Below, piece after piece: positions 25,111 to 45,124 of a stretch of DNA of 45,899 bases; positions within the stretch are counted from its first letter, which is position 1; each line of letters begins with the position of its first letter. The notes beneath the pieces were generated by a model. The model was not told the DNA's origin. It worked only from the letters and a program-made list of their open reading frames with translations, and did not search any database. The DNA is from an uncultured Enterorhabdus sp. (lineage in GTDB: Bacteria > Actinomycetota > Coriobacteriia > Coriobacteriales > Eggerthellaceae), in contig CANPHS010000005.1 in the NCBI GenBank assembly GCA_947573925.1, positions 1-45,899 of the forward strand, written 5' to 3'. A program made the position numbers and the translations under genes.

Positions 25111-25285
25111 GTAATGGAATGCGACGGTGCGTCCCGTCCGGCCCGCGCGCCCGATCTCCCTTGGCAATGGCGCAGCCGGGGCGTCGGTATCGGATTGGCG
25201 GCGCATGCGAGCCGCCAAAGCCAGCGGGGCGCCCTTGCGCTACTATGGCAGCAAGACGGCCGAAGCAGACGAGAAAAGAGGCGTC

Positions 25286-26188
25286 GTGGAAGATACCGAA
25301 GGCAGAGTCGCAGCGCAGGATTTTTCAGGGGAAGAGCCCCGCGACTTTGGCGCAGACCGCGCTGTATGCCCGATCTGCCCACACGCCTGCGCGCTGGCCG
25401 AGGGGCAGACGGGGCTCTGCCGTGCGCGCGTCGCCGAGGGCGGACAGGTGGTGGACGCCAACTACGGACGCATCACATCGCTGGCGCTGGATCCCATCGA
25501 GAAGAAGCCGCTGGCCCGCTTTCGCCCCGGAAGCAAAGTGCTCTCCGTAGGTTCCTACGGCTGCAACCTGCGCTGCCCGTTCTGCCAGAACGCCTCCATC
25601 GCCTGCGCCGGCGAAAGCGACGTGCCCTGGCGCGAGATCGCACCGGCCGAGCTGGTGAATGCGGCCGCGTCGCTTGCGCCCGAGGGCAACATCGGGCTCG
25701 CCTTCACCTACAACGAGCCGCTCGTGGGCCTCGAGTTCGTCCGCGACACCGCGCGCCTTGCCCACGAGCGCGGCCTGGCGAACGTGCTGGTGTCCAACGG
25801 CTACGTGAACGACGGCCCGCTACATGAGGTGGCACCATTCATCGATGCCGCGAACATCGACCTGAAGGGCTTCACCCAGAGCTTCTACGACCTCGTCGGC
25901 GGCGACTTGGCCACCGTGAAGCGCACCATAGAAGTGCTGGCCGCCACGTCCACCTGTCACTTGGAAGTGACGACCCTCGTCATCCCTGGCCTGAACGACA
26001 GCGATCAGGAAATCGCCGAGGCAGCCCAATGGCTCGCCTCGCTGGATCCGTCGACCCCCTACCACCTGACCCGCTTCTTCCCCTGCCACCGCCTTATCGA
26101 CCGCCCCGCCACCCCACCCGAAACCGTACACCACCTGGCCAACGTAGCGAGGCGCTATTTGAAGCACGTCTACGTAGGAAATTGCTAA
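25286..26188 (+). CDS. Radical SAM enzyme of the AmmeMemoRadiSam type
   Basis: A 300-residue radical SAM protein related to pyruvate formate-lyase activases. The 4Fe-4S motif is YGCNLRCPFC (C93, C97, C100), and an N-terminal cysteine set (C28, C31, C35, C45) in CPICPHACALAEGQTGLC is typical of the AmmeMemoRadiSam radical SAM component. FTYNEPLVGLEF and DLKGF follow in family order. The usual Memo and AMMECR1 partners are not adjacent. The frame is open to 25127, but GTG 25286 has AAGAGG ahead and a TACTAT -10 near 25243 lies within the longer version, so I prefer the shorter start. Confidence 0.85.
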   Translation: MEDTEGRVAAQDFSGEEPRDFGADRAVCPICPHACALAEGQTGLCRARVAEGGQVVDANYGRITSLALDPIEKKPLARFRPGSKVLSVGSYGCNLRCPFCQNASIACAGESDVPWREIAPAELVNAAASLAPEGNIGLAFTYNEPLVGLEFVRDTARLAHERGLANVLVSNGYVNDGPLHEVAPFIDAANIDLKGFTQSFYDLVGGDLATVKRTIEVLAATSTCHLEVTTLVIPGLNDSDQEIAEAAQWLASLDPSTPYHLTRFFPCHRLIDRPATPPETVHHLANVARRYLKHVYVGNC

Positions 26189-28303: not shown

Positions 28304-29824
28304 ATGAAAGATGGCACCGTAATGACATTGCGCGAGAATGGTCAGCTGGAAGCAAAACGCGCCAAAGGCGGTGTGCCCGAGAGCATCTGGGAAACCTATT
28401 CCGCTTTCGCGAACACCAACGGCGGGCTGATCATCCTCGGCGCAGAAGAAGGCCCAAAAGGAGAGGTAGAGTACGTCGGAGTCCCGAACCCTGAACAGCT
28501 CGTTAAGAAATTCTGGGACGGAGTGCACAATCCCTCGAAAGTCAGCGCCAACATTCTCACAAATGATTCGATCACCATTGAGACAATTAACGACTGCGAC
28601 ATTATCCGCATTCAAGTTCCTCGCGCCAACCGTCATTTGAGACCTATCTACATCTGCGGCAATCGGGAAAAGGGAACCTACCGCCGAGATGGCGAGGGAG
28701 ATTATCGCTGCTCATCCGAAGAAATCGTTGCCATGATTCGCGATGCGAGCAACGAGCCGCTCGACGACACCGTGCTTGAAGAGTTCCCGTTAGATGCTCT
28801 TTCGTGGGACACGGTAAGCCGATATCGAGCCGTGGTGTCAGCTGCCCGACCGAATCATCCGTGGCTCAAGCTCGATGATGAGGAGTTCCTCGTGAAGCTG
28901 AATGCCATTGGACGAACAAATGGAGAGGGAGAATTTCATCCAACACGTGCCGGTCTTCTCATGTTCGGTTTCGAGTACGAAATCGCAAAGGAATATGCGA
29001 ACTACTTCCTAGACTATCGCGAAGCAGATCAAGAACGCCGATGGGCAGACCGCATCACATCGCAAGACGGAACATGGACGGGAAACCTTTTCGATTTTTG
29101 GACGGAAGCGCTACCGCGACTGACAAGCGGCCTTAAGAAGCCGTTTGCGCTCGACAACAATCTCCAGCGCATCGAAGACACCGAAATGCACGCCGCAATA
29201 AGAGAGGCACTCGCGAACGCACTCGTTCATTCGGACTACTATGGAAGAAGAGGCATCGTCGCTCTGAGATATTCTGACCGAATCGAAATAGCCAATCCCG
29301 GCAATTCGCGCGTAGCGCTCGATGTGGTGAGAGCGGGCGGAATTTCTGATGCGCGCAATCCGACTCTGATGCGAATGTTCGGGCTTATCAGCGCTTGTGA
29401 GCGAATGGGAAGCGGATTCGACGTAATGAGCAACGCTGCGAAAGCGGCAAGCGCTCCCCCGCCCGAAATCGAGGAGCTTTTCAACCCAGACCGCGTAATG
29501 GTAAAAGTCTACACAGGGAAGCTGTCTGCGTTCTATCTTGACACCGACGCACCCAGCAATAGCTCTCCCTCCGAGACAAACCACACGCCGGCTTCTTCCA
29601 GCTCTGCCCAGCCATCCGTGCCCGCTCCACAACTTGCCCTCTCCCACGATCTCGCAAAAATCGTAGAAGTCGCCCAAGAAAAGGGAGGTTTCACACGTAG
29701 AGATGTTGAATCCGCATTGAACTGCGGGGCGACCAAGGCCAAGGGGCTCATCGCCGAATTGCTGGGCATGGGCATTATTGCGTCCGAAGGCTCAGCGCGC
29801 GGGACAAGGTACCGCTTACGCTAA
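28304..29824 (+). CDS. AlbA_2 (Schlafen) domain / RecG-like ATP-binding protein
   Basis: A 506-residue protein of the 'divergent AAA-4/AlbA_2' group, often annotated as a RecG-like helicase or putative transcriptional regulator. Residues 10-150 are the AlbA_2 domain (ENGQLEAKRAKGGVPESIWETYSAFANTNGG). EMHAAIREALANALVHSDY followed by IEIANPGN is a GHKL-type ATP-binding N-box region. The last 60 residues form a winged helix (KGGFTRRDVESALNCGATKAKGLIAELL). Such proteins are common in defence islands and as stand-alone regulators. Codon use is less GC-rich than upstream genes. ATG 28304 follows GAGATGGGGC. Confidence 0.85.
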   Translation: MKDGTVMTLRENGQLEAKRAKGGVPESIWETYSAFANTNGGLIILGAEEGPKGEVEYVGVPNPEQLVKKFWDGVHNPSKVSANILTNDSITIETINDCDIIRIQVPRANRHLRPIYICGNREKGTYRRDGEGDYRCSSEEIVAMIRDASNEPLDDTVLEEFPLDALSWDTVSRYRAVVSAARPNHPWLKLDDEEFLVKLNAIGRTNGEGEFHPTRAGLLMFGFEYEIAKEYANYFLDYREADQERRWADRITSQDGTWTGNLFDFWTEALPRLTSGLKKPFALDNNLQRIEDTEMHAAIREALANALVHSDYYGRRGIVALRYSDRIEIANPGNSRVALDVVRAGGISDARNPTLMRMFGLISACERMGSGFDVMSNAAKAASAPPPEIEELFNPDRVMVKVYTGKLSAFYLDTDAPSNSSPSETNHTPASSSSAQPSVPAPQLALSHDLAKIVEVAQEKGGFTRRDVESALNCGATKAKGLIAELLGMGIIASEGSARGTRYRLR

Positions 29825-30138: not shown

Positions 30139-30645
30139 CTACAGCTCGACCGAGAAGACCTCCGTCTGGTTGACTAGGTCCAGCTCAAGCTGCAGCGCGG
30201 CAATCTCGTCCGCGACGGCGCGATAGTCCGCCTCCGCCCGAGCGACGTCGTAGTTCGCGTACCGATACTCGATGGGCCCGTTGCTGCTGCCGAAGTACCG
30301 GTTGCCCAGTCGCTCCTGGGGCTGACGCGAAGCGAGCGAGTTCAGGCGATCCTTGCGCCCCGACAGCTGCGCGAGCAGGATAAGGGCCTCGTCGATAGTG
30401 ATGCCCCGCTCGGGCAGAACCGTCTGCATGTTGAATCGGTGCAGGGCGTGGCGAATGGCCCGCGCCTGCCCGTCGATCTGCGCGACCTTCTCACGCACGG
30501 CCCCGTAGTCGTAAGCAGGAGGCTCGGCTGCCTCCCCTTCCGCGAGCACGTAGGTGCTCACCTCCTGCTCGGTCCGCAGGAGCCGATCCTTCTCGTCCTG
30601 CAGCCTCCGCAGGTATTTGTTGGCACTAGCCGATGTGAATTCCAC
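30139..30645 (-). CDS. DIP1984 family protein (septicolysin-like)
   Basis: A 168-residue, largely helical protein matching the DIP1984/septicolysin family: EKDRLLRTEQEVSTYV near the N-terminus, the RAIRHALHRFNMQTVLP segment near 62-78, DEALILLAQLSGRKDRL near 85-101 and a C-terminal coiled-coil-like EADYRAVADEIAALQLELD. The family has been tied to a septicolysin name, but no activity is established and I see no secretion signal. GTG 30645 has AAGAGGTGG ahead. It lies downstream of the kinase on the same strand, with 120 bases between. Confidence 0.85.
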   Translation of the reverse strand: MEFTSASANKYLRRLQDEKDRLLRTEQEVSTYVLAEGEAAEPPAYDYGAVREKVAQIDGQARAIRHALHRFNMQTVLPERGITIDEALILLAQLSGRKDRLNSLASRQPQERLGNRYFGSSNGPIEYRYANYDVARAEADYRAVADEIAALQLELDLVNQTEVFSVEL

Positions 30646-30765
30646 GCGACCACCTCTTTCTCGCGCCGATCATTCGATGGCCTCCACCATACCAGGCGCC
30701 AGCAGTCGCATTCAACAGTTCCACTAGTCCGATTTGAGATTGATACTTTCTTAACCAACAGCCAT

Positions 30766-32316
30766 TTAAAGCGTACTCAAAAAGCTATTGATATCGGCAC
30801 TGCTTTCTTGCCTTCTGATTTCATCCTCTCTCGCACGCACCAAAGCTTCGTGGGTCTCTCGCCTCTCTTTTTCGAGACGCTTCCTCATAACCTCATTTGC
30901 CCAATCAATAAAACGAGGCATCTCCTTGCAAGCATCTGCCAAATGCCCCCTATCTCCATGCGTATTTGGAACCAGAATCTTATCGCCATTCACCGTAAAC
31001 CGCTGAGGGTCTAAGAAAAACCCATCTGTGGAAAAACTCGTAACGCCCATGTATGATCTAAAAGCTTGTTCCCAATCTGCGCCGGGACTCATGTTCAATT
31101 TGAAAACCAAGTTGGGCTCAATCCATTCCTTGCTCACAATTGAAATCTCAAATGGCTCCGGAACGCAAGCCTCAAATTCCAAAACTTCATCCTCTATCTT
31201 TTCAATATTCTTTCGCGCTTCAATATCCGCAAGCAGAATCGGAATACCTTCGTAACGACTGTCTTGATTTTGAGAAATCATTCTTGCAACGATGGGATCA
31301 AGATACGAAAACCGCTCCGATGCACCTGCGATTTCGGCATAGCCAGTTCCTTGAGGAACTGCACCGGTAAACAATTCATTGATTATTAATCCGAACGCAT
31401 ATTGGTCTGCGCGGTGATCAATCACACCATCGGCGATGCGTTGCTCGGGTGCAGCATATTTGAAGTTGGCAAGCCTTTCTGCGCGAGTTGTTTGCAGCGT
31501 TAAACCGGGCAGATCTTGATTGATATGGGCAACACCAAAATCAGCTAGCACTAATCGATTTGCATCCTTGTCTAAAAGAATGTTCTCCGGCTTTATGTCC
31601 CTGTGAACATGACCGTCGTTATAAAAGCTCTCCAATGAACTGAGAAGCGCGAGAAGCATACGTAAAATGGAAGCACGCTCAATTTTGGGGCTTTCCATCA
31701 GCTTTCTTAGGCTATTGTCATAAAGGGGCATCACATAAAACGGCCTCTTAAGTTCACCCTCCTGCTTGAATCCTTGATCAACAACCTTCACCAATGGCGC
31801 ATCAGTAACTCGTTCGCAGAACGCCATCTCCCTAAGAAAGCGCTTCATCTTCTTGCCATTAGCGCAAGACTGACTATTCAGTATCTTGAGCGCAAAAGAC
31901 TCGCCATCGTCGCGCTCAACAAGAAACACATTCCCCGCTCCGCCGTTTCCCAGAGAGTGCTTCTTCTCGTATGAATGCCTAGTTGTTTCAAAGCGACGCA
32001 ACGAGTTTGAAGCGCCTGTCTCCTGACCGGCCATACGCACATCGTCTTCCACCAAATACGCAATCGCATGAATTCGCTCTATCGCCGCGCTAACCGAGAT
32101 CCAATCATCCCAGTCGAAATCAACACCCTTGATCGCCTCGTTTGTAGAAAGACTAAGTTTTGCTCCAAGCGCAAGAAGCCTCTCTCTTGTACCCAGGATC
32201 CACGAGCACCAATCTACATATTCTTGCGAGTTTTTCTGGCAATTTCCGAAGTGGCCTTTGCCTCGTATTTCTTGCACTATTTCCCCAAGCGCCGTCAAAG
32301 TTGCCGATTGAGCCAT
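30766..32316 (-). CDS. Serine/threonine protein kinase
   Basis: A 516-residue cytoplasmic kinase. The catalytic domain runs about 115-370: glycine loop GNGGAGNV 123-130, ATP lysine K144, catalytic HRDIKPENILL (D240), DFG 259-261 and APEQ 289-292, all intact. The first 110 residues are a helical extension, and the last 140 hold a compact unknown domain plus a charged helix ending in a run of Arg/Glu. There is no transmembrane segment or PASTA repeat, unlike housekeeping PknB. A+T-rich codons and the position between a restriction system and the DIP1984 gene suggest horizontal origin. ATG 32316 has GGAAGG ahead. Confidence 0.93.
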   Translation of the reverse strand: MAQSATLTALGEIVQEIRGKGHFGNCQKNSQEYVDWCSWILGTRERLLALGAKLSLSTNEAIKGVDFDWDDWISVSAAIERIHAIAYLVEDDVRMAGQETGASNSLRRFETTRHSYEKKHSLGNGGAGNVFLVERDDGESFALKILNSQSCANGKKMKRFLREMAFCERVTDAPLVKVVDQGFKQEGELKRPFYVMPLYDNSLRKLMESPKIERASILRMLLALLSSLESFYNDGHVHRDIKPENILLDKDANRLVLADFGVAHINQDLPGLTLQTTRAERLANFKYAAPEQRIADGVIDHRADQYAFGLIINELFTGAVPQGTGYAEIAGASERFSYLDPIVARMISQNQDSRYEGIPILLADIEARKNIEKIEDEVLEFEACVPEPFEISIVSKEWIEPNLVFKLNMSPGADWEQAFRSYMGVTSFSTDGFFLDPQRFTVNGDKILVPNTHGDRGHLADACKEMPRFIDWANEVMRKRLEKERRETHEALVRAREDEIRRQESSADINSFLSTL

Positions 32317-32566
32317 CGCCTTCCACCCTTCCAGAAAGCCACCCGTCTTGAAATCATCTTCTTCTCTTCGCCACCCATACAGGCGAACGAGCGGGTTGTG
32401 CCCTCGTTTCCCCTGCGGTATCTACCGAATGGCCGCCGAACGTCTCTGCTCATTGCTCTTGTCATTATGATCTATTTAGCTCGAAGGAGTTTTCTTTTTC
32501 GCATATCTTGCTGCGCCCACTTACCACGTCGTCTCATCATTTTTCCATGATCGCAAAGATCTTTTT

Positions 32567-34585
32567 TCAATAATATAAGCGGACTGCTGACAGCAGATCT
32601 TCTCTCTTCATATACCACAGCTTATCGCCGAACGCGACCTGGTAGGCGACCACATCCATCAGCCCCTTGTCCGCATGCTCGAGGCGCATCCCATCGGGCA
32701 ATATCCTGATTTCATCAGGCAGTTGGCCAGCGAAAGGTATAGTTGCGAGAGAATTACCCTTATCTCTACAGATCACTTCGGCGAGAAGAACTTGCCCCGT
32801 TCCGAGCACAGGGTGATCAACCGTCATGCCTGGCAAAACGATCAAATTGTCAGAGTTGCCCTCCTCGAGTCTCCCCTCCCTAATGAGATGCGTCCTATTC
32901 TGGACTGTCCGTTCTATATATAACTTCCATTCAGGCCCATCTAAAGCATCGCGTCTTATTGCACATTCGCGAATAAGATCTCTCAATTTTTCCGGACTGA
33001 CATTTTTCGACTCAAACATCGCTACAAAATGCTCTCTAAACTGAGCCAGCGTCAGCGGAACGATGTCCAATCTCCGCTTGTTATCGCGTTTGTCATACCA
33101 AATGCCATGCCTAAAAGTTTCTGCTGTATTAGTGTCAATCTTTATTGCGACAAACAGACCGTAGACAGGGCAATTTGAGCTATCTATCGCATCTGACACG
33201 TGCCTTCTTACAGGTTCACCTTCCATTGCTTCCTGCCTCGACGAGGTAGACATCGAAACCTCTGTCACCAGCATAAAGTCCTGGTACTCGCAGCAAAGAT
33301 CACCCCTGCCGCCTCCGGCCGTGCTCACAGGCAAAAAATCTGAGTCGATCTTGAATCCTCTGACTTCATTTGGCTCCGTGATCATATGGTCTATGGCAAG
33401 CTCCGCTCTCCAAAGAATCCACTCAAGATAAGCTGGAAGTTCATCTTTTGGAACTTCTATTCTTGAATCTTCATCCTCTTCGCGACTCACACCGCCGCCT
33501 CTTTCGATAAGTCTCATATACTCAGCAATTTCTCGCCATTGATCGCGCTGCTTGTCGGCATATGCTATTTCGTTGGTTAGCTGGAGCGCCTCTTCCACGC
33601 GATACCGCGCAATGTTGACGGCCGCAGTATCGTTCACATCTAGATCGCTTATGTCGTAATAAACGCTCTGATCTTTAGCCATCCCTTCTACGCTGGCAAG
33701 TAGTTCTTTTGCGATCGCCAAGTCATCACTCGGCAGCGGTGCACCATTTGCAAGGATTGTCTTTGCGTTAAATAGCGATTTGCTGCCTATGGTGGCTTTG
33801 GCCATTTTATCAGCAACGACATGCTTCATGGGCGCAATAATCAGACCGCGTCCTTTTCTTTGCACGACTCCGGTTATCCGGAGATAACGCATGTTCATAT
33901 CTGCATAGTCGAAAAAGTTGCCTTTATTCTTCGAGTACTGCTTGCTGCGCTCGTTTATCTCGTTATGATCGAAAACGCGTTTCGAGGGCGCAACCGCCCT
34001 TCTTCTCCGTAAATCTAAGATATTATCCACTACGTACTGCAGATCATAGGTTGGATCTGTCGTATGGCCCCACAACGCAAACTCGGTTCTTGTGATCTCG
34101 CTAGAGCCAGTGCGCTTCTCCAATTCGAGCATCACAGCAAGGATCCAACGCAATGGCGAGAACAACTTACCGTTATCAGTCGTGGTCGGAATCTGTTCGA
34201 CGCTCATTGCCCGCAGGAAGCATTCTTGTTCAGCAGGATATGTGTCGGCTTGGAGAAACATGTACCCGAAAGGCGTTATTTGGCCAATCGGGCCTAATTC
34301 TTCTTGCCTACACCCGATCCGTCTGACATCGGGATAAATCAAGCCGTTTCGCTCAAACATCAAACGCCATTTCCTCGCATGGCTTCCAGTCGTATCTTTA
34401 CCCTGTTTGTTGTTGATTATCCCATTTTCCGAAAGATATTTCGTAAACGCTACGTCGTTTTTTCCTCCAATCAACTGGCCCACAAAAGGAGACTGAGCAT
34501 ATAGCTTGAAACCGTCCGAAATACGTGCGGGATTCCTAAGGCCGGTATTTCCAACCAGCCAGATATCTATCTGTTTTTCTTTCAT
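32567..34585 (-). CDS. AlwI family type IIS restriction endonuclease
   Basis: A 672-residue protein of the AlwI/PleI/MlyI endonuclease family (RE_AlwI). AlwI-type enzymes recognise GGATC and cut a few bases away. The start MKEKQIDIWLVGNTGLRNPARI and the LFSPLRWILAVMLELEK block are family features. The PD-(D/E)xK-like catalytic region is GGGRGDLCCEYQDFMLVTEVS, with D429 and E442 as likely metal ligands and E452 following. The actual recognition sequence is inferred, not proven. It starts two bases after the methyltransferase stop and is translated from the same transcript. Clearly A+T-richer than the chromosome. Confidence 0.92.
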   Translation of the reverse strand: MKEKQIDIWLVGNTGLRNPARISDGFKLYAQSPFVGQLIGGKNDVAFTKYLSENGIINNKQGKDTTGSHARKWRLMFERNGLIYPDVRRIGCRQEELGPIGQITPFGYMFLQADTYPAEQECFLRAMSVEQIPTTTDNGKLFSPLRWILAVMLELEKRTGSSEITRTEFALWGHTTDPTYDLQYVVDNILDLRRRRAVAPSKRVFDHNEINERSKQYSKNKGNFFDYADMNMRYLRITGVVQRKGRGLIIAPMKHVVADKMAKATIGSKSLFNAKTILANGAPLPSDDLAIAKELLASVEGMAKDQSVYYDISDLDVNDTAAVNIARYRVEEALQLTNEIAYADKQRDQWREIAEYMRLIERGGGVSREEDEDSRIEVPKDELPAYLEWILWRAELAIDHMITEPNEVRGFKIDSDFLPVSTAGGGRGDLCCEYQDFMLVTEVSMSTSSRQEAMEGEPVRRHVSDAIDSSNCPVYGLFVAIKIDTNTAETFRHGIWYDKRDNKRRLDIVPLTLAQFREHFVAMFESKNVSPEKLRDLIRECAIRRDALDGPEWKLYIERTVQNRTHLIREGRLEEGNSDNLIVLPGMTVDHPVLGTGQVLLAEVICRDKGNSLATIPFAGQLPDEIRILPDGMRLEHADKGLMDVVAYQVAFGDKLWYMKREDLLSAVRLYY

Positions 34586-34587
34586 GC

Positions 34588-36468
34588 TTAGTATCCTATG
34601 AATAAATACTCTTTGACTCTATTCCGATGAGTTTTCGCGGATGCCTGGTTCCCGAATCCGTAGGTATAATCTATGGGTATCACCTCTACATGCTTTTTAT
34701 GACGGGCCAGCAGCTCAATCATCCTTTCACGATCAGGCAAGCAGTTAGAGGAATACGAGACAACGATTATCGAATCGCTGTACTTGTCAAACATGGCCTC
34801 GAAAGCTCCCTCAGCACCCAACTCCGTGCTGAATGGAGTTGGGTAGGACTTGAACTTCTTTGTTTTGGTGTGCTCCTGAATTTCAACACCATCCCAATCT
34901 CTCGCAAGACCCTCCACGAAATGGTACCGACGCACATATTCGTTATCTGAGTTTTTTGAATAATAAGGAGGATCTATATAGACCAAGTCAGGGGTTTGGG
35001 CGTCAAGTTCTAAGGCATCTCCGTTCACTGAAGCATTCTGCCTGCCGTTATCAAAAACAGCGCGGTCGATTAGCTCGACGGCTTCCATGAACTGCTCTTC
35101 AACACTCTTCCGAAGATCCTTTCTCCCGTCGTCATATCGATGTCCCGTATAGGTGAATATGCCCCTTGGTCTCTTTTTCGTGCATGCCCTGATGAGAGCC
35201 ATCATGGCAATGGCCCTCTCATATTCATTCTCTATCTTTTTGATATTGGCACGCAAGGTATCGATCATTTCGTTCTCCTCGTCCTCGTAGTAAAGTCCCT
35301 TGAATTTAGTGGCCACGAAATGATCGTTGTCGTCTGAGGGCTTTAAGAGACGTAACGACGCCTCCTTGCCAAGGGTGGTATCGTTGTTTTCCACGAGAGC
35401 TTTGGTAAAGGTTGACGACATCCACATATAATCGTTACTAAGCACCTGGATACCTAGCGCTTTTAACATGTAGCTCACAATTCCTGATCCTGCGAACAAA
35501 TCGATTGCCGTACTCGGTCCAAACCTCTTTACAACTTCACCGATGGGACCGAGCATCTTCTGCTTTGAGCCCATATATCTAGTTTGGGGGTACTTATCTA
35601 TCTGCTGACACACATCGGTCTTGACCTTTGGCTCGCCTATATCGACAATAACATCTTCTCCACTTCTGCTGTCTCCCCTACATGAAACATGTCGTCGTGT
35701 TTGGACGATCGTCATGGGATAGTCACGATAGAGTTCCATCACGACAGGATGATTCGAGTTAGTAAGGACAACGCGACAACCCTTTTCTTCAAGATCCTTA
35801 ATTGTCTCAGCCAATACCCTATGATCATCCTCGTGAAACTGCTCCTTCGTATATCGTTTGAAATCACCTGACGGCGTTACAGGAAGATACGGCGGATCGA
35901 GAAAAACGAAATCCCCCTCAGCGGCATACTCCCTCAACACGTCTTGGTAGTCTCCACAAACTATGATCGCTTTTCGCAACGCCTCTGATGCCGCCCGCAA
36001 CGCTGTCTCATCGCAAATGTTAGGCTTCTTGTACCCACCGAAAGGCGTATTGAACTTTCCGCTCTTGTTTACGCGATACAATCCGTTGTAGCAGGTATGA
36101 TTGAGGTAAAGAGTTCGCGCAGCGGCTTCGAACTTTGGCAGCTCTTCCCAGCTTTGGTCGCGTACGGCATAATAGGCATCTCTTTCATTTTTATACTCTT
36201 TAAGACGTTCGATTACCTTCTCTACATTTGATGCCACCTGCTCATACATGTTGATAATTTCCGGATTGCTGTCAGCAATAACAGCACTCTCCGGCCGCAG
36301 TGCAAAGAACAATGCACCTCCCCCGAAAAACGGTTCAATGTATTTGCCGTAGCCGTCAGGGATTCGTGGCAAAAGCTCGTCGAGAAGCTGAGTTTTGCCT
36401 CCCGCCCATTTCAAGATCGGCTTTATTCTTTTCGAAGAAGTTTTAGCTGCCATACCTAAAGATCCCAT
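34588..36468 (-). CDS. Fused double Dam-type adenine methyltransferase of the AlwI-like system
   Basis: Two N6-adenine methyltransferases in one 626-residue chain. The N-terminal unit has ILKWAGGKTQLL, EPFFGGGA (45-52) and DPPY (191-194). The C-terminal unit begins near 297 with RYMGSKQKMLGPIG, then DLFAGSG (324-329) and DPPY (499-502). An asymmetric site such as GGATC/GATCC needs one methylation per strand, so each half probably modifies one strand, as in M.FokI. ATG 36468 overlaps the upstream gene; ATG 36453 (MAAKTSS) is an alternative start. It sits between controller and nuclease, so methylation is made before cutting. Confidence 0.93.
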   Translation of the reverse strand: MGSLGMAAKTSSKRIKPILKWAGGKTQLLDELLPRIPDGYGKYIEPFFGGGALFFALRPESAVIADSNPEIINMYEQVASNVEKVIERLKEYKNERDAYYAVRDQSWEELPKFEAAARTLYLNHTCYNGLYRVNKSGKFNTPFGGYKKPNICDETALRAASEALRKAIIVCGDYQDVLREYAAEGDFVFLDPPYLPVTPSGDFKRYTKEQFHEDDHRVLAETIKDLEEKGCRVVLTNSNHPVVMELYRDYPMTIVQTRRHVSCRGDSRSGEDVIVDIGEPKVKTDVCQQIDKYPQTRYMGSKQKMLGPIGEVVKRFGPSTAIDLFAGSGIVSYMLKALGIQVLSNDYMWMSSTFTKALVENNDTTLGKEASLRLLKPSDDNDHFVATKFKGLYYEDEENEMIDTLRANIKKIENEYERAIAMMALIRACTKKRPRGIFTYTGHRYDDGRKDLRKSVEEQFMEAVELIDRAVFDNGRQNASVNGDALELDAQTPDLVYIDPPYYSKNSDNEYVRRYHFVEGLARDWDGVEIQEHTKTKKFKSYPTPFSTELGAEGAFEAMFDKYSDSIIVVSYSSNCLPDRERMIELLARHKKHVEVIPIDYTYGFGNQASAKTHRNRVKEYLFIGY

Positions 36469-36677
36469 CCGATTTCTTCAACCTGATGCGCTTTTGCTAA
36501 AACTTCTGGATACTGGTTTTCTAGCATTGAGGTTATCAGCTCTGCATAGGTCATCTGTCGTTCTTTTGCCACTTTCTTTAAGGTGGCTCTAACGGCAGGT
36601 TCAAGCTGTAGCTGAATCGGAACAGTCGTAACTTTTGCTTGAACTTCGTCTATTCCTTGACCTGATCTTTTCCCCAT
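36456..36677 (-). CDS. Small ribbon-helix-helix-like controller of the R-M operon
   Basis: A 73-residue protein. VTTVPIQLQLEPAVRATLKKVAKERQMTYAELITSMLEN has the pattern of a ribbon-helix-helix (Arc/MetJ/CopG) DNA-binding domain: one beta strand, then two helices. ATG 36677 has AAGGA eight bases ahead; an upstream in-frame TTG at 36716 would fall in the -10 and is rejected. Its 3' end overlaps the methyltransferase start. By position it is a control protein for the restriction operon, acting on the inverted repeats around the -10. This role is inferred; an orphan antitoxin is another option. Confidence 0.75.
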   Translation of the reverse strand: MGKRSGQGIDEVQAKVTTVPIQLQLEPAVRATLKKVAKERQMTYAELITSMLENQYPEVLAKAHQVEEIGWDL

Positions 36678-36715
36678 GCACGTATCCTTAGGTCGAAACG
36701 TATTCACACTTCTCA

Positions 36716-36755
36716 ATTATAGACGTTACAATCTATGTTTGTTAGTTGCATAGAT
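36716..36755 (-). promoter_or_regulatory. Promoter -10 and candidate operator of the R-M operon
   Basis: Minus strand TATAAT lies at 36721-36716, with no good -35. Around it are three short inverted half-sites: ATAGA and TCTAT at 36719-36736 spanning the -10, and ATCTATG (36731-36737) facing CATAGAT (36749-36755). They are suitable for a ribbon-helix-helix dimer pair. Confidence 0.55.
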
Positions 36756-37688
36756 TATGATCTCGTAAGTTTCTACTTTATACATTTTTCAGGTTGATTT
36801 GCGAGCCGTTCCACGCACCCTCCTTTTTTCCAAAACTCAACTGGACGCGTGCGGCCGAGGGCGGGGGGCTGCCCCAGCATTGGCACCGAAAAGGTGCCTC
36901 GCGAGCGGAAGGAGATTCCTGCCGAGAGAAAACAGAAGCTCTACGGGAGGCCCAACCGCGCTGAGAAGGTCGCGATAGAGCAGAGGTTCGACAAGAACGA
37001 ATCCTTCAGCAGTCACAACCGCTCTATCAATCCGGTTCGCCGATGAGTCGAATCGGAGGCCTGTGAGGACACGCGCCGCTGGAGGCTGGGGCGACCGCAG
37101 ACGCACGATGGAACCACAGCCGATCATACCGCGTCGCCGCACATCATCGGCGATGTGATAGCCGAGGGAGAGCGCCCGGGAAGGCGGCGTGATCCCATGG
37201 TTCAAAATGATGGTATTCTAGGGATGACTTGATCTCCTCGGACGGCTTGCAGCCGTCCGAGGAGATCAAGGGCACCTGAGACGTCCATCGGCAGCATACG
37301 TCCATCAGAATTGCATCAAAGCCCAACGACCCAGAGCCTAGCGGTAGGGTCGTGCGCCGCAGACCCTAGGAGGGGGCCAATGATTATTGCAGATGAAATG
37401 CCCCGCCGTTCCGCGCTGCGCTGACACACGCTAGCTGCCCGACTCGTCGCGCTTGCCTCTTTGGGTTTCTTTGTTCTGATAAGTGTTGACACTCCAATGC
37501 ACCTCGGGAGGGCACGCTCCATAGTCAGGATCGACGCCGGTACCAGCGACCGCCATGTTCGAGGCTACCGATGCACAGCATGAGATGGCAAAGACAATGG
37601 TCGTGCTCGGCAAGGTGTCAAACCTCGAACGAATTCAGTGTTATTGCTGGAATCAGTTCTCTGCAGCATGATTGCGCCTGAAGCGGAG
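36756..37688. other. Long gap without a supported gene
   Basis: About 930 bases of mixed composition: A+T-rich at the left, then GC-rich. It contains a perfect inverted repeat (37228-37270), a 14-codon frame with a strong ribosome site (37380-37424) and a 60-codon minus-strand frame with a hydrophobic start (37431-37613). None matches a family I know. The patchwork suggests decayed or recombined DNA. Confidence 0.5.
37228..37270. repeat. Perfect inverted repeat, 20-bp arms, 3-base loop
   Basis: The arm CTTGATCTCCTCGGACGGCT (37228-37247) is followed by TGC and then its exact reverse complement (37251-37270). No T-run follows on either strand, so a terminator is unlikely. Perfect arms in a degenerate region suggest selection or recent origin. 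Confidence 0.95.
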
Positions 37689-38015
37689 TCACTTGTCCTC
37701 ACCTTTCAATGCAGCAATGAACTCGTCGATTGCGCTCTCACGTTGCGCGCTCGTTAGCGATGCCCCGAGCTGTTCAAGCTTGATTGCCCTCCGCTGCGCG
37801 AAGTCTTTCAGAAACTCGGAGTATCGTGTCGCCTTTGCCGCAAGATCACCATGCAAGTCCAACTCAACTTCGAATGCGCTGACGGGCACGGCGTTTGCTT
37901 CGTTGGGCGATGTGATCCACATCAGGAAAGCCGTATACGACTCCGCGTTCGACAAATTATAAGTTGTTCCGTTGGCCTCAACGACAATTCCGCCGTCTGC
38001 GTCAGTCTTTATCAT
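37689..38015 (-). CDS. Small hypothetical partner of the PHP-ATPase
   Basis: A 108-residue acidic protein that I do not recognise. It begins MIKTDADGGIVVEANGTTYNLSNAESYTAFLMW, likely a short beta sheet, and ends in a helix-rich half (YSEFLKDFAQRRAIKLEQLG and ESAIDEFIAALKGEDK). The start overlaps the stop of the PHP-ATPase gene by ATGA, so the two are translationally coupled. Such tight coupling to a large ATPase suggests a binding partner, sensor or antitoxin-like subunit. No signal or membrane segment. Confidence 0.75.
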   Translation of the reverse strand: MIKTDADGGIVVEANGTTYNLSNAESYTAFLMWITSPNEANAVPVSAFEVELDLHGDLAAKATRYSEFLKDFAQRRAIKLEQLGASLTSAQRESAIDEFIAALKGEDK

Positions 38016-40564
38016 CGCTCGTCACCTATCTGGAAGTTGTATTTGTTTAAGCGCATCTTCAAGTACCTCTCTCCGCCATCGAGCACATCCGCTATCGATT
38101 GCTTGACGGACACCTCGTTCATTGCGCCGTGGGTATAACTGATTGTACCATCGTCGTTTTCGCAGACGATGACCGTGCGAGCGTCACCGTTCACGATGAC
38201 GGGAGCGGAATGGCTCACAACGAAGAACTGGATGTCGAGCTTTAGCTTCTTCAAACGGTCGATAAGAAAGTCTTTGATGGTCGCAACATCGAGGTTGTCT
38301 TCCGGCTGGTCTAGCACGATATATGCCCATTCGCCAGACGTGACCCCGTCGTTAAGGAACAGCTTGAGGAGCGCTTGCGCCTTCATGCCCGGCGACATGC
38401 TGGCTATCGGCTTACCGTCTATCGTAATTTCGGTCTCTAGTCCACTAGAGCCGCTTATCGACTCTTCAAGTAGCTCAAAAAACTTGGCATGATGTGCTGA
38501 ATAATCTTTATTCTTGCAAGTCTTGAACTTCGTGCCGTTGAACAATCCGTGCAGCCGCATTTTGTCATTCTGACAGAGCAGGCCTTCGGCGAGAGCCTGC
38601 TGGCTCCTGCAAGAAGAGGCGCTCAGCAACGCGGCGACCTTATCCTCGAAGGAGTCGCCCTCGCTGTGCACGAGGCCAATGACGATTGACTCCTCGCCAT
38701 TGCTCAGCTCGAGCGGGTTGATTGGCCTGTGCATCTTTTCGTAGGCGACCTTAGCCTCGTCGTTCAGGTATGCCAAAAACCACCGTAGCTCCAGAAGATC
38801 GTCTAAGAACGATGCGGCCTCCACTGCCTGCTGGCTATACTGGGTAAGCGTGGTCGCATCGCTAGCCCTGTTATGCACGTTGAGAGTGGCGACGAACATC
38901 GACACCAGCTGCTCGCGCCCATAGAACCACCCCTCATTGACCGCTCTAAGAAGAAGAGCGAGTCGGCTTGCTCTGGCTGTGGCGGCATGCATAACCGCCT
39001 CTGTTGCCCGGATTTCGCCTTCCAGGGCACCAAAAAGTGTCGCGTTCTCTGGGTAGCTACTCTTCAGAGCAGCTGCACCGACAGCAGTTTCGGCGGTTTG
39101 AAGCGACTTCACGGCCCTATCTATAGCCTCTTTTGCCTGTTCTACCTTGGGAAAATCCTTTTGTGGGATTATCGGTGATGTTATCGTGATGCCAGACGGC
39201 ATCTCCATTTCAAGGTAATCCAGGCGAACAAGACCAGAACCGTATTTTTCGCGGAATGCCGTAAGCAGCTTCTTCTCGAGTTCGAATATCTGAGACAATC
39301 GTTCCCTCGCCGAGGCCGTTTCCTCTTCGGCGATCTCTCTCAATGGAGTAACATGCTCTCTTAGAAACGGTATTTCCTCGTAGCTGCCGTCCGCGTAGAT
39401 TCTCTCAAGCTCTCCCTGAGCCAGGTACAGACATTTAGGATGGTTACCGGTTGGAATGCCGCCACACGTCTTGAACTTCACGCTGTCTTTATCCACAAGC
39501 TGGGTATATGTGTCCAAGCCCCTTCCCGCAAGCAGGCACGCGAGTAATGACTTGCCGCTACCCCTTGAGCCAACGATGCCGTTATACCCAGGCGAAAACT
39601 GTAGTGTTATTTCACGCCCGCCCTCCGTCTTGTCAGCACCGAGCGTGTTGAACGTGACGGACTCGAGAAACATCGTGGTATTTGACTGTGGCAGGGTCGA
39701 GTGTTCGTCAGAGGTCTTGATACGACTTTCAGGATCGCTGATTGCGAGCAGTAGTGAATCGAGATCACCGTCGAAATCTATCCACGTGTACTTCGAACCA
39801 ATTTCCTTGGCGATCTGTGCATCACTGAACAGAAGAGACGCAACCGTAGTATTAAGCTCTTGCGCCAGGCCTTCCGTAATGTGCTTTCGGCTCTTCTCTC
39901 CTCCCTCGACCGCCATGGCATGACTGTAGTAGAAGAGCCTGTCCTTGTATATCTGATTCGCATGCAGCGGGCTCGAACGAGATCCATTCGGCAGATAATC
40001 CGATAAGCTCCTGTCCTTGTTCTCGTGCGGAATGAAGAAATGCGGTATAGACGCTGCTTTCTCCTGGAAGTCCTCAAGATAGATTGCTATCCCACTGGTC
40101 TTCTCTGAGAATTGCTTTCGCGGTAGGATTCGAAGATCCTCCTCATTCAAGCCGTCGTGATTATCTGCAGATAGTATCGCCGCAATGAACAGCTCGTCTA
40201 TGATTTCAGACATATCGACTGCATTATCAAGCGCATACCAGACTATTGCATGAAAGTATTCGCCCTTCTTGCCGTCGCCAAGAACTAAATGGAATGCGTC
40301 AATCGTCTCCCGTTTGAGTTTGACATTAATTTCAACGCCACCTATAAGAACCTTGCCCTTCTCAGCTAAAGCCGGACGCAACTTCGTTAGCAGTTCGACA
40401 TCGATGCTGTTGTGATCCGTCACCGCTAGGACGTCAAGGTCGCAATTCAGCACGCTTGAAAGAAAAGCGCTCTCATCATAGCTCCTGCTGTAACACGAAC
40501 TCGAATGGACATGCATGTCGCACTTTTTGAATGTTCCCTCTGTCAATCTCTCGCTTGCCACAAA
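38012..40564 (-). CDS. PHP domain plus SMC/ABC-like ATPase (TrlF type)
   Basis: An 850-residue protein with two parts. Residues 10 to about 280 are a PHP phosphoesterase: DMHVHSS (D16, H18, H20) and TDHNS (D50, H51) are metal ligands. From about 330 on it is an SMC/Rad50-like ABC ATPase: Walker A GSRGSGKS near 340, a coiled-coil middle, signature SMSPGMKAQ near 722, Walker B YIVLDQPEDNLD near 748, and a switch histidine in VVSHS. This fits the TrlF-like group and recalls defence ATPases joined to nucleases. GTG 40564 has GGAGGG eight bases ahead. The PHP half may cut nucleic acid; that is inferred. Confidence 0.85.
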   Translation of the reverse strand, partial: FVASERLTEGTFKKCDMHVHSSSCYSRSYDESAFLSSVLNCDLDVLAVTDHNSIDVELLTKLRPALAEKGKVLIGGVEINVKLKRETIDAFHLVLGDGKKGEYFHAIVWYALDNAVDMSEIIDELFIAAILSADNHDGLNEEDLRILPRKQFSEKTSGIAIYLEDFQEKAASIPHFFIPHENKDRSLSDYLPNGSRSSPLHANQIYKDRLFYYSHAMAVEGGEKSRKHITEGLAQELNTTVASLLFSDAQIAKEIGSKYTWIDFDGDLDSLLLAISDPESRIKTSDEHSTLPQSNTTMFLESVTFNTLGADKTEGGREITLQFSPGYNGIVGSRGSGKSLLACLLAGRGLDTYTQLVDKDSVKFKTCGGIPTGNHPKCLYLAQGELERIYADGSYEEIPFLREHVTPLREIAEEETASARERLSQIFELEKKLLTAFREKYGSGLVRLDYLEMEMPSGITITSPIIPQKDFPKVEQAKEAIDRAVKSLQTAETAVGAAALKSSYPENATLFGALEGEIRATEAVMHAATARASRLALLLRAVNEGWFYGREQLVSMFVATLNVHNRASDATTLTQYSQQAVEAASFLDDLLELRWFLAYLNDEAKVAYEKMHRPINPLELSNGEESIVIGLVHSEGDSFEDKVAALLSASSCRSQQALAEGLLCQNDKMRLHGLFNGTKFKTCKNKDYSAHHAKFFELLEESISGSSGLETEITIDGKPIASMSPGMKAQALLKLFLNDGVTSGEWAYIVLDQPEDNLDVATIKDFLIDRLKKLKLDIQFFVVSHSAPVIVNGDARTVIVCENDDGTISYTHGAMNEVSVKQSIADVLDGGERYLKMRLNKYNFQIGDER

Positions 40565-40669
40565 CGCAACCCTCCGCAACAAAACGCAATAATTTGCCCA
40601 TACCGCATTCTCCCATGCGTGCAGAGCAAAAACAACGCCTCAATTTCCATTCGCGGTCGACCACGTACA

Positions 40670-40930
40670 TCAGCCTAACCTCCACAGCGTGAGCGCGCTC
40701 TTGTCGTCCAGAAAGGTGTCGACCACGAAGATGCAGCTCTGATCTCCCAGTTCAGGATCTCGTCGACATTGTTGACGCGGATCCACCACCAGCGCCCCAT
40801 GGGAAGCCCAATGCAGGCCAGCGTCTCCGCGGCCCCGTCGCACGCGCTTGGCTCCCTCCTCGAACCCAGCTTGGCCACTATTGTGTCGACCCTCCCCATG
40901 CTTGCGTCCGTGGACTTCTGCACATGCACC
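40670..40930 (-). pseudogene. Remnant of an IS256-family (mutator) transposase
   Basis: One frame reads AAETLACIGLPMGRWWWIRVNNVDEILNWEIR, matching the IS256 C-terminal pattern (fP..HWr.IrtnN..Er.NrEIRrr). After a frameshift near 40740 the neighbouring frame continues VVDTFLDDKSALTLWRLG and stops at 40670, as in the conserved end (VVgtFPd..SAL.L). The N-terminal two thirds, including the DDE core, are missing and I see no terminal inverted repeats. It marks past IS insertion between the PHP-ATPase and TetR genes. The remaining bases of the 40565-41209 gap show no other supported gene. Confidence 0.75.
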
Positions 40931-41209
40931 GCTCCTTGTTTGAACGCTAGGGCTCGGGGGCCTCGGCTAACACGTTTCGATAAGGGCAGACCGGGCACTC
41001 ATGCCGATAAAATTGCTCAACCTCGGTCAGTTCGTTCGCCTTACCGCAGACAACTACGACAATGCCGACATGGACACAAGAGCAATCCTGCCCCTCGTTC
41101 GCATCTATTGACCAGCCTAGAGAAAGCAACTGAAGCTAAACGCCGAATCATAAAAGCGAAGACGACACACGCAGACGATCTACTTTGTCTGCGGATACTC
41201 GTAGAGCTC

Positions 41210-41875
41210 TCACCCCTCCCACTTCCCAATCGGCACCATGTCGAGGCGCAGGGTCTGCTCTATCACCTTCATGAGGACGTCGTCTTCTATCCGGGGGTTC
41301 ATCTTCACGAGGCCCACCAGGCCGAATATCACGACGCAGAACATTTCGTGCACCAGCTCGATCTCGATCCGATGGTAGGCCGCGTACTCTTTCGCGATGT
41401 GGTTCGCCAGGCAGTCCGCTGTCTCTCGCGTGGCGCGCACGTCGAAGGCGTCCCGCACGCCCAGCTCCTCCAACACGCCTATCATCGGGCGCGGGCGCCC
41501 CGTCCCGTCGTAGAGCGAGTACCGAAACGTCCGGATGCACTTTTTGAGCGACCCCGGCGTGTCGCCGAAGACCCTCGCCTCGTTCCACACGATCACGCTT
41601 TCGACCAAGTCTTCCACATAGTCGTCGATGACCGCCTCAATCAGCCCGTTGCGGTTCGCGAAGTGGTAGTAGATAAGCTCGCGGGTGACGTTCGCCTCAT
41701 TCGCGATGGCCGCGATGGAGGTCGCCCGCACCCCTCTCAGCTCGAAGAGCTTCCGCGCCGTGGCCACAATCGCACCCGGCGTGTCGGTCAGGCGCCGCGA
41801 CTCTCTCAGATCGCGGCGTCTCTCCCGCACGCAACCGGCCGCCTGCAGCGGCGTCATCTTCCCATAATCGTGCAT
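41210..41875 (-). CDS. TetR/AcrR family transcriptional regulator
   Basis: A regulator of about 221 residues. The N-terminal helix-turn-helix is TPGAIVATARKLFELRGVRATSIAAIANEANVTRELIYYHFANRNGLIEAVI; the C-terminal domain is helical, as in ligand-binding TetR proteins. The frame opens at GTG 41926, but that codon has no ribosome site; ATG 41884 and 41875 follow, the latter with AGGGG nine bases ahead, which I prefer. It is divergent from the DUF5692 gene, with an ATAGCGCTAT palindrome between, so it very likely represses that gene and itself. Confidence 0.92.
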   Translation of the reverse strand: MHDYGKMTPLQAAGCVRERRRDLRESRRLTDTPGAIVATARKLFELRGVRATSIAAIANEANVTRELIYYHFANRNGLIEAVIDDYVEDLVESVIVWNEARVFGDTPGSLKKCIRTFRYSLYDGTGRPRPMIGVLEELGVRDAFDVRATRETADCLANHIAKEYAAYHRIEIELVHEMFCVVIFGLVGLVKMNPRIEDDVLMKVIEQTLRLDMVPIGKWEG

Positions 41876-41954
41876 CGTCGTCATCCCCTGGAACGCCCCG
41901 TCTCTCCTCCGCGAAATGTCCTTCACAAATCATAGCCTTTTGTGAAATATTGCG

Positions 41955-43849: not shown

Positions 43850-45124
43850 CTATGCAAACATTATAGAGCAGAAAACCGTTGCAGCTATTCCGAGAATCGT
43901 AGCCACTAATGTCAGGGAGGCAATCGTGGTAACAATCGAAGAATTTTGTAGGCCGCCGATTGCTTCGATGTAACTCAGGTTTTCCTGATAGATGTTTTCA
44001 AATTTGTCAGAGTAGCGAGGAAACGAGAACACCGGGAACCTTGGATCGTCTTTCCACTGTCTAACAGGACATTCTTGCTGATTTTGCTCCCATTCGGCAA
44101 TCATATTCCGCCTATTGCGGACATCATGTAACCTGCGGATTAGCCATCTAAGGTCTTTCCTTCTCACTCTTTTTTTAGAGCCGTTGTAGTACGGTGCAAA
44201 TCGCACTTCTACTTCTTCCGACTCATAGCGCGAGAACAAGGTCAGGTAGAACTCAAATCCATAGTAGGACGCGTAACTCAATATCGGAGAATCCTCGATT
44301 CGTCTTCCAATGCTGAAAACTTCGCAAATGGTTCGAGGCATCAACAACTCTATGCTCAGGACGCTTGACCCATCTCGCTTATGTAATGCCGATCGAAAAG
44401 GCAGCTTCTCTATTCTTTGCAATACTTTTCGATTACTTCGGAGCAAGAAATGGCCTAGGGTGATTGGCAGACCATTTCGATATCCAATAGACGAATACGA
44501 ATACGTGCATACGAGTCCTTGGAACACATCGAAAAATATCTCTGAATCCAATCGGAGAAGATCTCGATTTGACATTTCAGACCTTATTATCTTCTTATCT
44601 GCGTAAGTAACAAAAGAAGGATTGAGCCGAATCCTATCAATCCACTCGTTAACCACTTCAACCATATCGGCATGAGTTCTTAAGACTTTTCGAAAATAGA
44701 ACTTATATGTAACGAAAAGAAGAGAATCGCTTATTGGAGTATATGAGACGATAACTTCTCTAATACTTCCTTCTGACAGAGAAAACTCGCATAAGAGGCC
44801 GGTGCTAGTTCCAAATAAATTCGATCTAATGTAGTCAAATTTTCCAATCTTCCTAACCCTAAATGACATGTGAAAATCTCGCACATTGTCATATCGTTCT
44901 ATCTTTTTCAAACGCTTAAGAGCACGATTCAACGATTTGTTATCTAGCACATCAGACACTTCAACATAATGCATTGCAGTCTTAATGCAGTTCTTCTTTT
45001 CAAGATGCCGAGCATATAGAAAACGTTCTGGATGGTTAACGCTTTTCTGCTTATAAAGCTTCCGAAAGCGCTGCCTCTCGCGCCACCACCTCAAACGATG
45101 TGCACACTTTACGACATATCTCAT
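43850..45124 (-). CDS. Orphan protein with C-terminal membrane anchor
   Basis: A 424-residue protein that I do not recognise, encoded in strikingly A+T-rich DNA. The first 60 residues are Arg/Lys-rich (RLRWWRERQRFRKLYKQK), the middle is a mixed alpha/beta region, and the last 30 residues form one hydrophobic helix (SSIVTTIASLTLVATILGIAATVF), a tail anchor. No signal peptide. ATG 45124 has only a weak ribosome site. It lies 63 bases after the guaA stop on the same strand and is a single gene. Composition and a membrane tail recall effectors of abortive-infection systems, but nothing proves it. Confidence 0.75.
   Translation of the reverse strand: MRYVVKCAHRLRWWRERQRFRKLYKQKSVNHPERFLYARHLEKKNCIKTAMHYVEVSDVLDNKSLNRALKRLKKIERYDNVRDFHMSFRVRKIGKFDYIRSNLFGTSTGLLCEFSLSEGSIREVIVSYTPISDSLLFVTYKFYFRKVLRTHADMVEVVNEWIDRIRLNPSFVTYADKKIIRSEMSNRDLLRLDSEIFFDVFQGLVCTYSYSSIGYRNGLPITLGHFLLRSNRKVLQRIEKLPFRSALHKRDGSSVLSIELLMPRTICEVFSIGRRIEDSPILSYASYYGFEFYLTLFSRYESEEVEVRFAPYYNGSKKRVRRKDLRWLIRRLHDVRNRRNMIAEWEQNQQECPVRQWKDDPRFPVFSFPRYSDKFENIYQENLSYIEAIGGLQNSSIVTTIASLTLVATILGIAATVFCSIMFA

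Follow-up and report, generated by a model that had tools for sequence, protein, structure and literature searches.

The locus considered here raises the question of whether a large gene encoding an ATPase with a PHP domain and the short gene overlapping its end constitute a single functional unit and, if so, what that unit does for its host. Both genes lie in the window, i.e., the whole stretch of 45,899 nucleotides from an uncultured Enterorhabdus sp. that was analysed (Table 1). The answer favoured here, with slightly better than even confidence, is a horizontally exchanged two-gene anti-phage module in which a small acidic subunit would regulate a sensor-effector ATPase.

Table 1. Features of the two-gene module and its surroundings, in window coordinates.
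Feature	Position	Strand	Description
Small acidic partner	37689..38015	(-)	108 aa, pI 4.57; ORF call and AlphaFold2 model
Stop/start overlap	38012..38015	(-)	4-bp ATGA; kept in the subfamily, 1-bp TGATG in L034
Large gene	38012..40582	(-)	PHP + SMC/ABC-type ATPase; 856 aa from TTG 40582
Type IIS AlwI-like restriction endonuclease (672 aa) and D12-type methyltransferase (626 aa)	32567..36468	(-)	Profile matches
IS256/Mutator-family transposase remnant	37034..37267		Adjoins the module; Transposase_mut
Segment swapped in G001	36790..41209		blastn identity stops at 36790 and restarts at 41209

The large gene has two candidate starts, either of which may be used judging from alignment and sequence context. 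TTG 40582 lines up with the ATG starts of L002/L035 and L003, while GTG 40561, which would give a protein of 849 aa, carries GGAGGG just 5' and lines up with the sole early start possible in L036. The start at 40564 given by an earlier, sequence-only reading of this DNA falls on TTT, which is no start codon. The protein ends in ...GDER, and its TGA stop forms part of the ATGA that also holds the ATG of the small gene; both ORFs are real, and the translational coupling described in that reading stands. With residues numbered from TTG 40582, the PHP motifs comprise HxH as HVH (H24/H26, formerly numbered H18/H20), TDHN, E84, H111, H186 and D254. The final His of motif IV (DxH) is replaced by Q in the window protein (SDAQ), and each of the seven remaining subfamily members has L, K or E there; it is thus absent in 8/8 of them but kept in Ppl and many other relatives. 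Because this last PHP ligand is replaced, the predicted metal centre is nearly, though not fully, canonical: the earlier description of it as intact holds for the remaining motifs and fails at this position, and PHP catalysis may therefore be weakened, altered or absent. The ATPase is as complete as had been claimed, with Walker A (GSRGSGKS), a signature-like SPG, Walker B (DQPED) and the switch His (H791) all found. Its AlphaFold2 model (pLDDT 59) is too poor for fold search or interface inference.

The small partner had been called undescribed, which is true for Pfam, NCBIfam and PADLOC, where it has no match; its only PHROGs match is marginal (tape-measure, E 0.004), and a PDB sequence search returned none. 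The AlphaFold2 model (pLDDT 86.7) consists of a beta-hairpin followed by helices. Foldseek gave no match at E < 0.001 and the best VIA Z was 2.5, so that no hit was good enough to assign a fold. The residues invariant in the small family are M1, G8, L21, Y27, T35, S36, P37, F48, K61, R64, Y65, F68, R76, R92, I96, F99, I100 and L103. Among relatives, the small proteins share 30-42% identity, compared with 44-65% for the ATPases, and this faster divergence might fit a part that faces the trigger. Purifying selection acts on the small frame (dN/dS about 0.26 and 0.07 for the closest pairs), with third positions varying most; together with the co-occurrence of the two genes across 398 genomes, this rules out a chance ORF.

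Close relatives of the pair occur in Collinsella stercoris, C. phocaeensis, an uncultured Collinsella, two Olsenella strains, Curtanaerobium respiraculi and two IMG/VR contigs. The contigs are not independent occurrences, because the ATPase of one is identical to that of Olsenella An270 and that of the other nearly identical to that of C. stercoris. In all complete copies the small gene lies directly 3' of the ATPase gene, overlapping it by 4 bp or, in L034, by 1 bp. Among the 398 Coriobacteriia genomes sampled, both genes are present in the same seven, which are spread over three families, and neither an orphan ATPase (as a close homologue) nor an orphan small gene was found. G244, which is among these seven, has its ATPase split across two contigs, and an eighth, weak match (G164) belongs to another branch with its own small gene. 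The check proposed in the sequence-only reading, a search for lone homologues, has therefore returned 7/7 paired and none single, with distant TrlF and Ppl proteins lacking the small gene. The two genes are a real, conserved module. It is very improbable indeed that this is a plain TrlF/Ppl-type single-protein system whose downstream ORF is an accessory without needed function: such a reading draws on the fact that the TrlF and Ppl members examined are lone genes, but perfect co-occurrence, purifying selection and the tree split between proteins with and without a small gene (described below) all argue against it. The obligatory partner across the 398 genomes can also be taken to mean that the large protein is a sensor/antitoxin and the small protein the freed effector, in the way AriA holds AriB, and AriA is indeed the closest solved ATPase. 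This arrangement is quite improbable, as the invariant residues of the small family include no catalytic-looking set and the PHP domain is the better effector candidate.

Coupling of this kind extends well beyond the subfamily. An ORF of 75-135 aa is coupled to the end of 30 of the 32 PHP-ATPase loci scored (a set that includes a few near-duplicates), compared with 9/150 control ORFs in the same DNA, and the two loci without one are true TrlF. These two excepted, each of the divergent PHP-ATPases examined in the class is followed by an acidic ORF of 75-130 aa that begins at most ~25 bases from the stop and mostly overlaps it. A coupled small gene is absent from the true TrlF loci of Klebsiella, Pseudomonas, Lactococcus and two class members, and from the Ppl locus of Klebsiella. 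In a tree of 43 proteins, a single branch with 99/99 support parts 33 proteins with a coupled ORF from 10 without (TrlF, Ppl); the tree is unrooted and has several long branches, and its "with" rows are mostly from Coriobacteriia and its "without" rows mostly from other bacteria or phages. Acidity is common to the 29 small partners for which pI was computed (4.07-5.17). Homology between the partners of different branches is mostly not demonstrable: profiles match only for B-C1 and C1-C2, the window group matches none, and a search for homology of the window protein to the partners of other branches did not show it (hhalign probability <= 2.9%, not exceeding reversed controls). For these divergent partners the family-model scan covered Pfam, and a scan of viral contigs with branch D found nothing.

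Two further observations concern these other branches. L118 and L120, IMG/VR contigs with unassigned hosts, encode PHP-ATPases with a 93-aa coupled ORF beginning 20 nt before the stop, which suggests from sequence that the pairing may reach beyond Coriobacteriia. In one sister branch, 5/7 small partners have an acidic ...IPF tip at the C-terminus: DWGDIPF, GDDEIPF, EDDAIPF, ADEDIPF and DEEDIPF (L075, L085, L087, L089 and L094). The C-terminal tip of SSB resembles such an acidic ...IPF.

The module lies in a defence hotspot of the genus, bordered by a PflA-like radical SAM gene and a TetR gene (window 25127-26188 to 41210-41926) with a variable interior. Conserved borders enclosing interchangeable defence systems were confirmed across the window, G001, G003, G005 and G008. 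Among these sister species, the interior of G005 has an R-M system of type III, a CBASS cyclase paired with a 2TM effector and an HKD-Snf2 protein; that of G003 has Gabija and a PDC-S20 candidate; and that of G008 combines a type IV enzyme and a type II methyltransferase. In the sister species G001, the DNA carrying the kinase and AlwI R-M genes (window 30193-36790) is 95% identical, and the counterpart of 36790-41209 is an unrelated segment with a different PHP-ATPase and its own coupled small gene. Since the same 95%-identical AlwI region flanks different cassettes, one PHP-ATPase cassette has replaced another there. This natural swap at one locus makes the two systems comparable within the same host background. 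At the G001 locus (L159, C1:1528500-1545300), a Mutator-type IS interrupts TetR, and the cassette has a UPF0236 protein as its neighbour.

The restriction system and IS remnant that had been reported beside the module are both real. The R-M genes score 339 bits (RE_AlwI) and 275 bits (MethyltransfD12) and are called REase_II and MTase_II by PADLOC; L156 has an intact transposase gene whose end is 75% identical, at the nucleotide level, to the IS256/Mutator-type remnant. A search for a second copy in its own genome found none, only a self-complementary hairpin, and tblastn did not confirm a second IS256 remnant guessed by eye upstream (about 40.67-40.9 kb). An imperfect 39-nt inverted repeat at 37209-37289, with a near-perfect core at about 37228-37270, adjoins the remnant and is perhaps a terminator or an IS end. 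Elsewhere in the region, a Ser/Thr kinase-domain protein (30766-32316, minus strand) sits beside the R-M genes, its best PADLOC match being PD-T4-6 at 126.9 bits. A short ORF with a sub-threshold ribbon-helix-helix match (36456-36716, minus strand) lies 5' of the methyltransferase gene and overlaps its start, and is a possible R-M controller on sequence grounds. Schlafen/AlbA_2-domain proteins are encoded near the module both in the window (28304-29824, plus strand) and in L035 (12084-13472). A 424-aa ORF between msrA-like and guaA-like genes (43850-45124, minus strand) has marginal PHROGs matches only and no match in Pfam or PADLOC.

R-M genes occur within a few kb of the module at 5/6 independent subfamily loci. 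Their kinds differ: AlwI in the window, Alw26I with N6 and C5 methyltransferases in L031/L039, MmeI in L033, and N4/N6 and C5 methyltransferases in L034 and L036, respectively. Prophage tail genes lie near L034 and L039. The R-M clustering could reflect hitch-hiking within the hotspot, which is counted against a defence reading. Similarity to SMC/Rad50/SbcC would also allow a DNA/RNA repair or housekeeping ATPase that merely rides in mobile regions. This is improbable for a module that is rare (7/398 class genomes) yet spread across three families, is found in a defence hotspot and in prophages, and is kin to Ppl. The antiviral pattern proposed in the sequence-only reading thus gains genomic support from the presence of the anti-phage Ppl among the nearest curated families, the genus defence hotspot and the R-M genes at 5/6 loci. 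Very probably, the module is an antiviral defence system of gut bacteria.

From these patterns we infer the defence function, the activity of the PHP domain and the role of the small protein. In the favoured mechanism, ATP would pair the ABC heads, which would sense an infection cue; this might be nucleic acid or a protein of the phage, for example an anti-restriction factor. Sensing would switch the PHP domain on as a nuclease or phosphoesterase, bringing phage growth to a halt, perhaps through self-sacrifice. The small acidic protein would act as an equimolar regulatory subunit seated on a basic ATPase surface, keeping the effector off until it gives way to the trigger. Given the R-M systems next to it, the module may serve as a second line or a guard, in the manner of PARIS.

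The main rival assigns the small protein the opposite sign, namely an activator that senses the trigger or confers target specificity and without which the ATPase is inert. Faster divergence of the small protein than of the ATPase, the exchange of whole cassettes at the hotspot and the branch-specific, mutually unalignable nature of the small proteins are all consistent with it. Structure searches, however, revealed no recognition fold, and the uniform acidity fits a charge-based inhibitor or mimic equally well; the activator is accordingly regarded as rather unlikely. A bolder proposal, put forward tentatively and held to be doubtful, is that these systems form an unrecognised large two-gene branch whose fast-evolving acidic partner is a decoy, mimicking DNA or the SSB tail, that phage proteins or nucleic acids displace, thereby firing the nuclease. 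Were this true, SSB or the proteins that bind its tail would be the sensed object in the sister branch with ...IPF tips.

Whichever role the small protein plays, the module matters because all relatives examined on its branch carry the partner, whereas the best-known single-gene relatives do not. Current annotation treats Ppl- and TrlF-type PHP-ATPases as single-protein systems. Should one deep branch depend throughout on a small acidic subunit, its members would be overlooked or misread in screens that clone single genes, and defence-finding tools would not call them. The small partner also offers a handle on how sensor-nucleases are silenced or triggered.

Among named families, the window protein is kin to TrlF, Ppl and Spaf_1101, and this kinship, as judged by profile scores, is weak but clear. 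TrlF (NF045780) is the best-scoring family, at 226.9 bits against a cut-off of 350, and shares the architecture of a PHP domain joined to an AAA-like ATPase. The TrlF members examined lack a coupled small gene, unlike the window protein, which falls outside TrlF in the unrooted tree, with TrlF and Ppl across the 99/99 branch. Ppl (NF042955, PADLOC PDLC02208) is likewise one large chain with PHP followed by an SMC/ABC-type ATPase in a mobile-element context, and the window protein reaches 125.7 bits against its cut-off of 1000 (116 bits with the PADLOC Ppl model). Ppl nevertheless keeps the motif IV His (GSDAH, compared with SDAQ in the window), and in the Klebsiella record it stands without a coupled small gene. 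Spaf_1101 (NF045781) has the architecture in common as well, although the score of 116.6 bits is far below the cut-off of 475. PDC-M49, a multi-gene PADLOC candidate, matches weakly: PDC-M49A aligns with the PHP and ATPase ends at 27.5 bits, or at 43.4 bits when the G001 protein is compared, and the 108-aa partner matched no PADLOC model. No description of a coupled small partner for PHP-ATPases was found in the literature searched, most subscription journals lying outside its scope.

PARIS offers the closest structural comparison. A profile built from 35 relatives has AriA as its nearest solved structure (E 2.9e-15) and also finds a PHP-family structure (3e-7); the window ATPase scores 23 bits against the PADLOC AriA model. 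AriB is a Toprim/OLD-family nuclease and AriA an ABC ATPase without a PHP domain, whereas the module here joins PHP to the ATPase and pairs it with an acidic 108-aa protein; this coupled partner gave no Toprim match, and no AriB-type neighbour is seen in its place. The likeness lies in AriA being the nearest solved ATPase, in the two-gene organisation and in the association with restriction systems (PMC11455837). In PARIS, AriA recognises acidic anti-restriction proteins and then frees its effector (PMC11455837). Judged against these systems on present sequence comparisons, the module represents a new, two-gene form of PHP-ATPase system, akin to TrlF and Ppl but a member of neither family.
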